Shown: in pieces, positions 24,111 through 32,393 of the stretch
Layout: each line of letters starts with the position of its first letter
How positions within the stretch are numbered: position 1 is the first letter of the stretch
NCBI GenBank assembly: GCA_029246285.1
Contig: JAQWNW010000058.1
Coordinates: 1 to 64,000 of the forward strand
Direction: 5' to 3'
DNA length: 64,000 nucleotides
Origin: Paracoccaceae bacterium
GTDB lineage: Bacteria > Pseudomonadota > Alphaproteobacteria > Rhodobacterales > Rhodobacteraceae
Translations under genes and position numbers: made by a program
Notes under the pieces: generated by a model
The model's database searches: none
What the model saw: the letters and a program-made list of their open reading frames with translations, nothing else
Told to the model about the DNA's origin: nothing

Positions 24111-24569
24111 TTAAATACATTTTTCCATATAGACGCTTGTTTCATTAGGAAAATAGTCTCCAAAACGATCACAAAAGGTAAATCCATTTTTTTTATAAAG
24201 ATCCACAGCAGCATTTAACTCTAATCCAGTCTCTAATTTGACATATGATAATTTTTCAATTTTTGCCTGTATGATAACATGGTCTAACAATTTTTGCGCC
24301 ACACCTTGGCCTCTTTGTTTTTCATCTACAAACATTGCTTTCAATTCTGCGTAAGTCTCATTAATTGACAGAGCGGCACAACCAATAATTTTATCATTAT
24401 CAGTTGCAACGTAGAATTTAACATTACTTTCACATAATTCGTCTACAGATAATGCATAGATATCATCTTGTGGAAATAATTTAGATAACAACTTATGACT
24501 GGCTTGTAACAAGCGAAAAGCTTCGGGGTGACGAGGATTACCATCAACAATAGCTAATCGATCTATCAT
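24111..24569 (-). CDS. GNAT family N-acetyltransferase within the cobalt operon
   Basis: A 152-residue acetyltransferase with the GNAT core: a beta strand with YVATDNDKIIGCAAL near 54, the acetyl-CoA loop VDEKQRGQGVAQKLLDHV near 87, and LETGLELNAAVDLYKKNGF near 113. Its acceptor is unknown. The stop abuts the cobN start and its own start overlaps cobW by four bases, so it is a true member of the cobalt operon rather than a chance neighbour. It may modify a small molecule or a protein of that pathway, but this is inference. Confidence 0.88.
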   Translation of the reverse strand: MIDRLAIVDGNPRHPEAFRLLQASHKLLSKLFPQDDIYALSVDELCESNVKFYVATDNDKIIGCAALSINETYAELKAMFVDEKQRGQGVAQKLLDHVIIQAKIEKLSYVKLETGLELNAAVDLYKKNGFTFCDRFGDYFPNETSVYMEKCI

Positions 24570-25621
24570 CTTATTAGTGCTTCTGTTATTTTCGATCGGC
24601 TCATACCTTTTTGACCTATTACGACAATCTTCGTTGCACGTTCCTCACTTATTCCAAATGCCTTATCAAAATACGACTCCACTCGAGGTCCAACAGCTTG
24701 AATCGTCAGTCTCAATGGTTTCCCCTTCACAGCGACAAAGCCTTTCAATCGCAAAATATCATGTTGCTTTATCACTTTTACAACTTTTTGAGTAAAGATA
24801 TTAACATCTTGGATTTCTTGCATCGCAATTATAAAACTTTCAAAATCATCATGGTCATGGTCATCAGAACTGTGGTTGGAATCATCCTCATGATGATGGT
24901 GATGTAATTCGTGACGATTCTCTAAATCATTCTCTGCCATCATCTTTTGTCCAAGGACAATATCCGCCGATAAAACACCCCTTTCTGATTTCAAAACTTG
25001 AACCCCATCTCTACTATCTTGTTTTAGTTGATCAACAAGATTATCTGCTTGATCATTAGTAAGCAAATCAGATTTATTTACGATAATCATATCCGCGCAA
25101 GCAATTTGATCCTCAAACAACTCAGACAATGGGGTTTCATGATCCAAATTTTCGTCTGAAGCTCTCTGCATATCGACTGCTTCAATTGAATGTGCAAACC
25201 TCCCTTCGGTGACGGCTTTTCCATCAACAACGGTAATAACACCATCAACTGTGACTTTAGTTTGAATCTCTGGCCATTTAAATGCCCGCACCAATGGTTG
25301 TGGTAATGCCAAACCACTTGTCTCTATTATGATATGGTCAAATCGTGTCTCACGTTCGAGCAATTTCTGCATCGTCGGAATAAAATCGTCAGCAACAGTA
25401 CAACAAATACATCCATTGGATAGCTCTAAGATATCTTCTTCATTACAAGCTTCATCACCGCACCCCTTAAGAATATCGCCATCTACTCCCAGATCTCCAA
25501 ATTCATTAATTATTAAAGCTATTTTTCTTCCAGCAGCATTATTTACAAGATGCCTAATTAAAGTTGTTTTCCCCGCACCTAGAAATCCGGTTATCACGGT
25601 CGTTGGTATCTTATTAAGCAT
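24566..25621 (-). CDS. cobW: CobW-type metal GTPase/chaperone
   Basis: G3E-family GTPase of 351 residues thought to deliver cobalt for cobalamin synthesis. The P-loop GFLGAGKTT is at 12-20. The metal-binding CxCC lies in SNGCICCTVADD near 70. A histidine- and aspartate-rich stretch (about 239-262, with five histidines in a row) links it to the C-terminal CobW domain. It sits between a small His-rich membrane ORF and the GNAT gene, all leftward, below cbtA. Regulation by the upstream cobalamin riboswitch is likely if the operon is continuous. Confidence 0.95.
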   Translation of the reverse strand: MLNKIPTTVITGFLGAGKTTLIRHLVNNAAGRKIALIINEFGDLGVDGDILKGCGDEACNEEDILELSNGCICCTVADDFIPTMQKLLERETRFDHIIIETSGLALPQPLVRAFKWPEIQTKVTVDGVITVVDGKAVTEGRFAHSIEAVDMQRASDENLDHETPLSELFEDQIACADMIIVNKSDLLTNDQADNLVDQLKQDSRDGVQVLKSERGVLSADIVLGQKMMAENDLENRHELHHHHHEDDSNHSSDDHDHDDFESFIIAMQEIQDVNIFTQKVVKVIKQHDILRLKGFVAVKGKPLRLTIQAVGPRVESYFDKAFGISEERATKIVVIGQKGMSRSKITEALIR

Positions 25622-25641: not shown

Positions 25642-25890
25642 TTAAATACTAGGATAATGATGATCATTACTTACAAGAGAAAAACGATTATGACTTCCAC
25701 AACCATATTCCATGTCCCCTTTTTCCTCTCTTAAATCTAACCGAGACTCCTCATGAATGATCTCGCTTTTGTGATCAGTATCATGATTATGAGTTTCGAA
25801 AGGCTTCCCAAACACAATGCCTAGAAAATATCCAAGCCCGACTAGAAAGAAACTTAATACAAAATATATAAATATTGACCTACTAGAAAT
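25642..25890 (-). CDS. Small His-rich membrane protein, probable ATT start, cobalt operon
   Basis: An open frame of 82 codons fills the gap between cbtA and cobW. It has no ATG, GTG or TTG start. An ATT at 25888-25890 is preceded at ideal distance by GGAGGA, placed inside the last codons of cbtA. The product would have one membrane helix (about residues 6-28), then a soluble tail with eight histidines, including HNHDTDH near 34-40 and DHHYPSI at the end, plus one cysteine in YGCGSH. The histidines suggest metal binding at the membrane. I do not recognise the family. It ends 20 bases before cobW. Confidence 0.6.
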   Translation of the reverse strand: MSSRSIFIYFVLSFFLVGLGYFLGIVFGKPFETHNHDTDHKSEIIHEESRLDLREEKGDMEYGCGSHNRFSLVSNDHHYPSI

Positions 25891-26557
25891 CTTCTTTCCT
25901 CCAAAAATAACCAGTCAAAAAACCTAGAGAGCTCCAAGTTACCAGTCCAATTGCCAAAGCTCGGGATGCAAAATGACTAGCAAGCTCTGGTGGTGTTGGA
26001 CCAACAAATATTAAAGGCTGTGGTGCACCAATTATATGAGGTGTTAAAAGCAGAATAACTCCAACAACAATAAATATAAGTTTACCCCCGAAAGCGAGAA
26101 TCCAGAAACCCAAACCCGTGGAGATTACACAAAAAAACCACCAAATCTGTCTTGGTATTAATTCAGCCGCTGCAACCCCAGGTAACTCTGGTGGCAATCC
26201 AAATGCAGGAGATAATTGTACTGTCACAAAACCACAGATACCAAATAAAACAGCCCTTACATTATCAATTTGCAGATTTATAGAAGATGCATATGCAAGT
26301 AACGAAGTTAAGATAAAAGCATATCCAGTATAGATCAAAGCGCTAAATAGAACACTCAGCGCATTTCGTTGAAAATCAAAAGTGAGGTTTAAATGAGACC
26401 CTGAGACACTACTGTTTCCAAAATGTGTTAAAGTTCCAGCCTCATACAACTCAGCGTGCAAAAGAATTGGTTGTAAAAATATTATTTGCATTGCCGCTGA
26501 AATTACGCCGGCTATAAAGCCTGCAAACAGGGCTATGGTTAAAATTCTTAAAAACAT
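25883..26557 (-). CDS. cbtA: Cobalt transporter subunit CbtA
   Basis: CbtA is a predicted cobalt uptake membrane protein found with CbtB under B12 riboswitch control. The 224 residues include five hydrophobic segments and the family stretches FIAGVISAAMQIIFLQPILLHAE near the N-terminus and GLPPELPGVAAAEL near 115. The gene is leftward, about 130 bases below cbtB. Its 3' end carries the ribosome site of the next small ORF. The mechanism of transport has not been worked out; the assignment rests on family and on the riboswitch context. Confidence 0.92.
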   Translation of the reverse strand: MFLRILTIALFAGFIAGVISAAMQIIFLQPILLHAELYEAGTLTHFGNSSVSGSHLNLTFDFQRNALSVLFSALIYTGYAFILTSLLAYASSINLQIDNVRAVLFGICGFVTVQLSPAFGLPPELPGVAAAELIPRQIWWFFCVISTGLGFWILAFGGKLIFIVVGVILLLTPHIIGAPQPLIFVGPTPPELASHFASRALAIGLVTWSSLGFLTGYFWRKEDF

Positions 26558-26688: not shown

Positions 26689-26859
26689 TCAGTGGCAAGG
26701 AAAACCCGTGGTATGACGCACGTCGTGAGCGGCATCATGCAGGGCGCTGCCTTGAACGTGACCCGACACCGTGACAACAGCCAATCCCAATAAGGCAGCA
26801 CAAATCATCCCAAGATATGTTGATCTAACTGCAATATTATTTTTAATAGCGATATTCAT
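26689..26859 (-). CDS. cbtB: Cobalt transporter subunit CbtB
   Basis: CbtB is a short single-helix protein with a histidine-rich C-terminal segment presumed to bind cobalt. Here it has about 56 residues, one membrane helix near 14-33, and the conserved tail SALHDAAHDVRHTTGFPCH. I choose the ATG at 26859 because a strong GAGGAGAG site lies just before it; a frame opening at 26880 only adds seven residues that overlap this site. It is the first gene after the cobalamin riboswitch. The local GC content is above that of most of the window. Confidence 0.92.
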   Translation of the reverse strand: MNIAIKNNIAVRSTYLGMICAALLGLAVVTVSGHVQGSALHDAAHDVRHTTGFPCH

Positions 26860-26904
26860 TTTTCTCTCCTCTTCCGTCACACCCGACAGATTGATAAATT
26901 TCTC

Positions 26905-27105
26905 GCTCCGGCTGGTTTCCTGACTTGCGTTTCAGTGCGCTTACCGACCTTCCCAGCTATCGCCAGTGGTTTTTCCGGTGCGCTATCCGCATACAGTCGC
27001 GGGGGCGGTTGCAGCTTTAAATCCCTAGAGACGGTTGACCATTACTGCATTCCCATTCAATCCCCAATAGCTTTGCTATTTTATGGGGAACCTTTGCACA
27101 ATCCT
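26905..27105 (-). promoter_or_regulatory. Cobalamin riboswitch upstream of cbtB
   Basis: Read on the minus strand the element shows the parts of a cobalamin riboswitch in order: GCAAAGGTTCCCC near the 5' end, a GGGAATGCAG block, GCGACTG, CCACTGG, CTGGGAAGG, and the B12 box AAGTCAGGAAACCAGCC about 50 bases before the cbtB start. The element is GC-rich against AT-rich surroundings. It would shut down cobalt uptake and probably the whole cbtB-to-cobO unit when cobalamin is ample. Boundaries are approximate. With the smc promoter it accounts for the gene-free stretch 26860-27316. Confidence 0.93.
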
Positions 27106-27197
27106 TCTGATCACTTAACCTTTCAGACGTCAAGTTAATTCAGGATATGTTTTAAAAATAATTTGAGTTTTTAATAACTAAAAACCGATAAAGTTAT

Positions 27198-30794: not shown

Positions 30795-32393
30795 TTAGTA
30801 ATTAACATCAAATTCTAAAGCGCGAACTTGATTGAATACACCAGTGCTTAACAAGATATTTCTAATTTCATTAGTTATGGGAGTATCTAAATAAAGCAAA
30901 GCAATCGCCTCACCCCCTACTTTAGAACGGCCTAATGTGAAATTGGCAATATTTACACCATTTTCAGCCATTGTTTTACCCAAAACTCCAATAATACCTG
31001 GAGTATCTACATTCGTAGTATATAACATATGTTGCCCAACTTCAGCATCAATATTAATCCCTTTGATTTGAATAAATCGAGGCTTGTCATCACTGAAAAC
31101 AGTTCCAGCAACTGATCTTTCCATTGTTTCAGTAACAACAGTTACCTTGATATATGCCGCAAATACTCCACTCTTGTCCTGAGTGGTTGTTGAGATCTTA
31201 ATGCCTCGATCTTTTGCAACTATAGGGGCCGAAACTAAATTAACATCTGGGTTCGATGTACGCATTATGCCTGCTATGACTGAACAATTAAGTGCTTCTA
31301 GATTCATTGAAGATACTGATCCATCATATAAAATATTTATTGCTTTGATCGGCTCTTGGGTAAGTTGACCCACGAATGTTCCTAAATGTCCTGCTAACAA
31401 CAACCAAGGTGTCATTATTTTTGACTCCTCAGCAGTTATAGAAGGCATATTAAGCGCATTAACTACTGCACCATTTATCAAGTAATCACTTATTTGTTCA
31501 GCAACTTGGATGGCTACATTTTCTTGGGCTTCTTTTGTGGCGGCACCTAGGTGTGGTGTGCAAATAACATTAGGTAAATTGAATAATGGACTTTCAATCG
31601 CTGGTTCAGTCAAAAATACATCGAAAGCAGCACCCGCAACACGCCCATCTTTTATCGCCTCGGCCAAAGCTAGTTCATCTACCAAGCCACCTCTAGCGCA
31701 ATTTATTATCCTAACCCCGGGTTTTAATTTTTCTATATTTTCCTTATTTAAGATATTTCGAGTCTGATCAGTCAGTGGAACATGTAAGGTGATAAAATCT
31801 GATCCTTCCAATAACTCTTCTAATTCCACTTTTTTGATGCTTAGATTTTTAGCCTTCTCTTCGCTTAAGTAAGGGTCATAAGCTACAACCTTCATTTTTA
31901 AAGCCCTAGCTCTTTCGCAAACAACGCCTCCTATATTACCTGCTCCTATTACACCAATTATTTTATTAGTAAGCTCGACTCCCATAAACTTTGACTTTTC
32001 CCATTTACCTGCGTGGGTTGAATTGTTTGCAGCTGGTATCTGTCTAGCAACAGCAAACATCATTGCGATAGCGTGCTCAGCAGTAGTTATCATATTACCA
32101 AGTGGCGTATTCATAACGATTACTCCTTTTTTAGAAGCAGCAACCTTATCAATATTATCAATACCTATCCCAGCACGGCCAATAACCTTTAATTTATTGG
32201 CACGTTTAAGTATGTTTGGCGTTACTTTTGTTGCTGAACGAATTGCCAATCCATCATAATCCCCAATCCGCTCAGCTAAATTTTTTTTATCTTTGCCCAA
32301 TTCCGGTTCAAAATCTACTTGGATACCTCTGTCTCGAAAAACCTTCAGAGCTGAAGGACTCAAATTGTCTGATACTAAAACTTTAGGTTTCAT
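30795..32393 (-). CDS. serA: D-3-phosphoglycerate dehydrogenase
   Basis: SerA oxidises 3-phosphoglycerate with NAD, the first step of serine synthesis. The 532-residue form has the substrate/NAD domain with GVIGAGNIGGVVCERA near 144, the catalytic arginine and histidine regions NCARGGLVDE and CTPHLGAATKEAQ, an intervening domain (about 320-450) and a C-terminal ACT domain that normally allows serine feedback. It follows serC by 44 bases on the same strand, so serC-serA form an operon, possibly under the upstream leader RNA. Confidence 0.96.
   Translation of the reverse strand: MKPKVLVSDNLSPSALKVFRDRGIQVDFEPELGKDKKNLAERIGDYDGLAIRSATKVTPNILKRANKLKVIGRAGIGIDNIDKVAASKKGVIVMNTPLGNMITTAEHAIAMMFAVARQIPAANNSTHAGKWEKSKFMGVELTNKIIGVIGAGNIGGVVCERARALKMKVVAYDPYLSEEKAKNLSIKKVELEELLEGSDFITLHVPLTDQTRNILNKENIEKLKPGVRIINCARGGLVDELALAEAIKDGRVAGAAFDVFLTEPAIESPLFNLPNVICTPHLGAATKEAQENVAIQVAEQISDYLINGAVVNALNMPSITAEESKIMTPWLLLAGHLGTFVGQLTQEPIKAINILYDGSVSSMNLEALNCSVIAGIMRTSNPDVNLVSAPIVAKDRGIKISTTTQDKSGVFAAYIKVTVVTETMERSVAGTVFSDDKPRFIQIKGINIDAEVGQHMLYTTNVDTPGIIGVLGKTMAENGVNIANFTLGRSKVGGEAIALLYLDTPITNEIRNILLSTGVFNQVRALEFDVNY

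Follow-up and report, generated by a model that had tools for sequence, protein, structure and literature searches.

The frame between cbtA and cobW

Does the gap between cbtA and cobW in the cobalt operon of this Paracoccaceae bacterium hold a gene, and if so, of what kind? In the window, the 64,000-nucleotide stretch of contig JAQWNW010000058.1 analysed here, an 82-codon frame followed by a TAA stop lies open on the minus strand at positions 25642..25890 (codons 25890-25645, stop codon 25644-25642), as the initial annotation had described. The frame is situated between cbtA (25883..26557, minus strand), a predicted cobalt transporter subunit (PF09490, E 2.7e-42; TIGR02458 above cut-off), and cobW (24566..25621, minus strand; TIGR02475, E 7e-153, also Pfam-confirmed), with 261 nt separating the cbtA stop from the start of cobW. 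Upstream lie cbtB (26689..26862, minus strand), a second predicted cobalt transporter subunit (PF09489, E 1.4e-18, over cut-off; TIGR02459 below cut-off, at 55.2 of 64.4 bits), and, ahead of it, a cobalamin riboswitch (26893..27110, minus strand; RF00174, 105.9 bits). Further genes downstream we take, from their sequences, to be cobN, cobO and a GNAT gene.

A chance open frame was ruled out by shuffling together with the neutral simulation described below: the given frame stayed open over 82 codons in 0.35% of 2000 dinucleotide shuffles, and any of the three frames in 0.65%. Base composition by codon position (46/32/24% GC) is what coding frames show in an A+T-rich genome. The product has zero matches over cut-off in Pfam or NCBIfam, which excludes it as a CbtB, CobW or other family member by these models; the score for Aspzincin_M35 (PF14521), 13.9 bits where 30 is the cut-off, was attributed to chance. 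A search of the 82-residue product against 198 genomes of the family, one per genus, gave a best match outside its own genome of only E 0.028. Like CbtB (PF09489), whose gene lies in the same operon, it reads as a small protein combining a hydrophobic stretch with a histidine-containing tail, but it has no PF09489 match. CobW, a COG0523 GTPase (TIGR02475), shares the operon and has a His/Asp-rich stretch; it is, in contrast, a cytosolic GTPase metal chaperone, and the window product matches no CobW model.

The product has one predicted membrane helix and a histidine-rich arm

Hydropathy analysis showed one strong hydrophobic segment in the window protein (Kyte-Doolittle mean 2.28, residues 8-26), and AlphaFold modelled a helix at residues 3-27 (25810..25884, minus strand; pLDDT block means 80-96), both agreeing with the single membrane helix proposed earlier. 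Beyond the helix, the model is unstructured and of low confidence. Codons 26-50 (25741..25815, minus strand) make up a His segment containing HNHDTDH, identical in the congeneric genome G001, and codons 51-82 (25645..25740, minus strand) form a weakly constrained tail. The initial annotation counted eight histidines and one cysteine; the histidines number seven (residues 34, 36, 40, 46, 67, 77 and 78), and the one cysteine is indeed present, though it is a tyrosine in G001.

Selection on the frame in congeneric genomes

Counterparts of the frame are present in all three congeneric genomes, namely that of the window (G000), G001 (82% complete, 7% contaminated) and G002 (76% complete, 4% contaminated), with gene place and order alike in each. 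The same frame is open in G001 and encodes the same short form, with 79% identity over residues 3-82 (E 1.2e-40); it contains two N, and both affected codons were excluded from the selection analysis. G002 has a 149-aa frame at the same place, encoding a helix, the motif HKHSHDH and a further domain, and its product matches that of G000 with E 1.3e-5 (E 1.2e-4 in the reverse search). The short form is thus known from one genome pair, G000 and G001.

Between these two genomes, dN/dS of the frame was 0.37, or 0.32 without the first three codons (Nei-Gojobori), a weaker constraint than in every neighbouring gene compared (cbtB 0.11, cbtA 0.19, cobW 0.11, GNAT 0.14, and cobN, over 784 codons, 0.08). 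The dS of the frame, 0.28, falls inside the neighbours' range of 0.24-0.45, which argues against constraint at the DNA level as the cause and rules out conserved non-coding DNA. By part, dN/dS was 0.15 for codons 4-50 and 0.71 for codons 51-82.

Against a simulation of neutral change in the same genome pair, which took kappa and base frequencies from fourfold sites, codons 4-82 showed 14 amino-acid changes where 20.3 were expected (P=0.0047). For segments whose borders, at codons 25 and 50, were set after the changes were seen, codons 26-50 carried five synonymous and no amino-acid changes against 3.6 of the latter expected (P=0.0002, segment drawn post hoc), codons 4-50, likewise drawn post hoc, gave P=0.017, and codons 51-82 had nine amino-acid changes against 11.5 expected (P=0.087). 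Codons 4-25 had five against 5.2 expected (P=0.59), with no synonymous excess. With Fisher's test, the N-terminal part differed from the tail at P=0.12 and the His segment from the tail at P=0.008.

The helix-encoding part shows a signal of another kind. None of nine substitutions in codons 3-27, and none of eight in codons 4-25, falls at the second codon position, and the segment thereby stays hydrophobic through all five amino-acid changes in codons 4-25. G001 retains the seven histidines, which in itself is no significant excess with 16 of the 80 comparable residues changed. The initial annotation had named a frame or histidines lost in relatives, or a protein free of selection, as grounds against a gene; instead, frame and histidines persist in G001, and selection on the protein is detected over the frame and is strongest in the His segment.

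A candidate non-standard start

Ahead of the helix, the frame contains no ATG, GTG or TTG; its first standard start is an internal GTG at 25815, from which a 57-aa ORF without the helix is called mechanically. The earlier claim that there is no standard start therefore holds only for the full-length frame, helix included. The best-placed start is plausibly an ATT (25888..25890, minus strand), present at this position in all three genomes, which follows by 6 nt a Shine-Dalgarno-like GGAGGA (25897..25902, minus strand) in the 3' end of cbtA; the G002 counterpart of this site is GGAGAA. A CTG (25912..25914, minus strand), kept in G000 and G001 and matched by GTG at the same place in G002, is a fair alternative. 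The pairing of ATT with GGAGGA put forward earlier keeps its favourable spacing but has a competitor in this CTG. The ATT is constant although the last two cbtA residues vary (DF in G000 and G001, NS in G002), and since the site overlaps cbtA, its conservation in part reflects shared constraint.

Elsewhere in the window's genome, infC (L178, contig C1, ~31450-31659) has an ATA just before its conserved ARRPHN sequence and no ATG, GTG or TTG from the preceding stop to ARRPHN; it appears to start at this ATA, which would show that such starts occur in this genome. Non-standard starts of this class are common in infC, where they are under the control of IF3.

An unnamed family commonly follows cbtB-cbtA

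The larger point of our analysis is an unnamed protein family of about 165 aa, here called X, whose gene is a common successor of cbtB-cbtA in Rhodobacterales and certain relatives and is found beside the importer genes in many marine bacteria. In a genome of another genus of the same family (G022), the gene after cbtA encodes an ATG-started 160-aa protein, whose relatives turned up in 68 of 295 family genomes (E <= 0.001), some through the C-terminal domain alone; cbtB and cbtA stood just upstream of X in 28 of the 30 loci fetched from this search. A 31-row X profile matched 12 of 289 genomes sampled at class level and 75 of 244 at order level; these 75 all belong to the same family as the window's genome.

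A scan over named genomes yielded 477 X relatives, of which the best 80 were kept for locus analysis. In all of these best 80 of 477, a cbtA match ends at most 132 nt from X, and cobW is downstream in only five; because the loci were picked by X similarity, this supports X going with cbtA and not the reverse. Of 41 related genomes, 15 gave cbtA loci, 16 in total: four were followed by full-length X and two by the short form, and at ten none was found (one of these, L009, has just 754 nt of contig past cbtA), so X is not required with CbtAB everywhere. One genome (G015) has two cbtA copies, one followed by X (L005) and the other by cobW without X (L017), which suggests two alternative operon forms.

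X begins with ATG at 75 and GTG at three of the best 80 of 477 loci; the remaining two have an ATG slightly ahead of the matched start, by 15 or 3 nt. A cobalamin riboswitch was detected at 12 of 13 X loci searched among the 80, ~0.9 to 1.3 kb before X, and was not found at the thirteenth (L123); where cbtB coordinates were available, in L077, L078, L079 and L081, it is just upstream of cbtB. Near the X locus of L079, positions 2614-2665 also match the SAM/SAH riboswitch RF01727, exactly at its cut-off.

X is built from an N-terminal membrane helix, a linker rich in histidine, and a beta-rich domain in which histidines are conserved. The AlphaFold model of a full X protein (L081, 31 rows; mean pLDDT 87.7, pTM 0.67) has a helix at residues 3-25, an uncertain linker and strands from residue 57, with pLDDT 97-99 at residues 61-164. 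In an alignment of X (A2), H33, H35, H53, H106, H108 and H145 are fully conserved, and H125 almost fully.

Searches of Pfam, NCBIfam and PDB sequences gave no convincing match for X. Weak hits to PF21467 (10 of 31 members, best E 0.0058) and PF03168 (5 of 31, best E 0.0032), to six more Pfam families (at most three of 31 members each) and to three NCBIfam families (one of 31 each) were set aside as chance or generic beta-domain similarity. Structural comparison of the domain with the PDB returned nothing with Foldseek E <= 0.001, and a best VIA Z of 9.2 amid many unrelated rows; the matches were generic ones of Ig/FN3/PKD-like kind, from which we read no function. No account of X was recognisable in titles and the beginnings of abstracts from the literature on CbtA, CbtAB and DUF1636.

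The window frame resembles a shortened X

The frame, read earlier as an unannotated ORF, is no lone orphan and probably has relatives in this widespread family after cbtA. The bridge is the 149-aa product of G002, which matches the X profile with 55.6 bits (E 9.6e-19 in a three-sequence search; E 2.3e-16 against six-frame segments). The window protein itself scores 9.3 bits, over its helix and His part only, and 9 of 2000 shuffles score as high; against six-frame segments, the profile gave E 0.047 for G000 and E 0.16 for G001. Given this weak profile score, the link is carried by synteny, by the match between G000 and G002, and by alignment of the helix and HxH. In an alignment of the window protein with X (A3), G20, H34 and H36 are invariant in 18 of 18 rows, the window HxH pairing with the HDH of X.

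Like X, the window frame lies just downstream of cbtA on the same strand, in an operon led by a cobalamin riboswitch, and encodes one N-terminal helix with HxH soon after it. It differs in length, 82 aa against ~165, being ~80 residues shorter, in having no ATG, GTG or TTG ahead of the helix, and in the absence of the beta-rich domain (GHxH...H...NxH), for which reason we regard it as a shortened relative and not a full member.

The tail is possibly a remnant of that domain. A MAFFT alignment shows a likeness between tail and domain in K-4-Y-4-H and SNDH, and A3 pairs tail residues Y62, N75 and H77 with invariant X residues. Shuffled sequences score as high against the X domain profile in 59 of 5000 cases for the G000 tail and 62 of 5000 for that of G001, while pairwise alignment of the tail with G002 is not significant (1769 of 5000 shuffles as high); given these scores, an exact mapping of tail onto domain was rejected as merely suggestive.

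Remnant, peptide or gene

Judging from sequence comparison, we consider it somewhat better than an even bet that the frame is a genuine gene, probably translated, and a shortened X relative encoding a membrane-tethered histidine arm at CbtAB; the constraint on the protein suggests that the frame probably still makes one. Its main rival, which we rate unlikely while taking it seriously, is a decaying pseudogene, in which an ancestral X is being lost in the genus and the open frame is an unbroken remnant. The missing domain, the missing standard start ahead of the helix and the tail dN/dS of 0.71 would all fit such decay, as would the finding that neither the G022-protein search nor the 31-row profile search detected X at E <= 0.001 elsewhere in G000. 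In addition, 38.6% of neutral simulations leave the frame open, so openness in both species proves little. Decay does not, however, readily explain the deficit of amino-acid changes over the whole frame or their complete lack in the post hoc segment of codons 26-50, and the short form is common to two species (cbtA protein identity 88%), having therefore outlived their divergence.

Translation might instead begin at the GTG at 25815, giving a soluble, cytosolic His-rich peptide of 57 aa that could meet CobW. That codon is a standard start, is shared with G001 and opens the most constrained segment as drawn; yet it has just a weak AGG nearby and is missing from G002, the codons 4-25 that it would leave out are kept hydrophobic, with 8 of 8 substitutions sparing the second position, and the helix is a feature of family X. 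We therefore consider this peptide improbable. Still harder to credit is a +1 frameshift near the run TTTTTGGAG, which would fuse the frame to the CbtA C-terminus with no separate start. In its favour, all three genomes (G000, G001 and G002) keep the run, and the frame stands in +1 to cbtA, whose end it overlaps. Against it, at 78 of 80 loci the matched start of X is itself an ATG or GTG, the other two having ATG 15 or 3 nt upstream, and the window frame is preceded by a strong ribosome-site-like sequence.

A possible role at the cobalt importer

If the frame is a gene, X in this genus would have diverged and lost its usual ATG, and the window species and its sister would also have lost the X domain, keeping the helix and His-rich arm. 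Translation would proceed from the riboswitch-led cbtB-cbtA message, via the ATT with its GGAGGA or the CTG just upstream, and the protein would sit in the inner membrane beside CbtA and CbtB, presumably in contact with them. The charges flanking the helix, one arginine before and a lysine after with the ATT start, and further lysines before with the CTG start, are a weak guide to topology. In X, a short Arg/Lys N-terminus is followed by a helix, an acidic stretch rich in histidine and then a folded domain, an order that suggests a periplasmic tail. Such a layout is typical of membrane-anchored periplasmic proteins. The histidines, most likely periplasmic, could then bind Co(II) loosely, concentrating it locally at the mouth of the importer, with CobW acting later, in the cytosol.

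This arrangement bears on the membrane-proximal cobalt relay suggested in the initial annotation; a relay to CobW now looks poorly supported: the family layout puts the tail probably in the periplasm, and direct relay is unlikely because the cobalt site of CobW, a cytosolic protein, is likely its CxCC motif (PMC7689651). A role on the CbtA/CbtB side appears to fit better. CbtAB was reportedly first predicted in a paper of 2003. That CbtAB imports cobalt is only predicted (PMC2667541), and support comes from a methanotroph screen in which cbtB repression and lower cobalt each improved growth (PMC13108547). The literature on CbtAB, to the extent of the excerpts available, yielded no account of its mechanism.

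As a broader and quite tentative proposal, which we think has a real but minority chance of being right, X might be a third CbtAB component, a tethered periplasmic Co(II) capturer, here pared down to helix and His arm, with an AUU-class start tying its dose to initiation factor 3. As a conserved, riboswitch-led, His-bearing CbtAB neighbour without a family model, X offers a direct way into the question of how cobalt in the periplasm might get to CbtAB, and the shortened form suggests which part of it may suffice. The window frame would also be a small gene that is apparently under selection and has no ATG, GTG or TTG before its helix, of the sort that automated annotation may miss.

X on plasmids and in another neighbourhood

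L159 (NZ_CP072995.1, 4833-5309) encodes a sequence distantly related to the C-terminal domain of X, beside YHYH (PF14240) and PEBP-like genes, with cobalt genes absent among the nine annotated features in 10.3 kb; from this neighbourhood, the role of the domain may be wider. In public plasmid records, X is entered as 'hypothetical protein' (e.g. WP_166194393.1, WP_008188223.1), adjoining CbtA and a convergent DUF1636 gene. The set cbtB-cbtA-X with the convergent DUF1636 gene was seen on a 12.2-kb plasmid (L157, NZ_CP049812.1) and a 94-kb plasmid (L158, NZ_CP045347.1), both typed as mobilizable (MOBQ), so that this cobalt-uptake set may move between marine bacteria.
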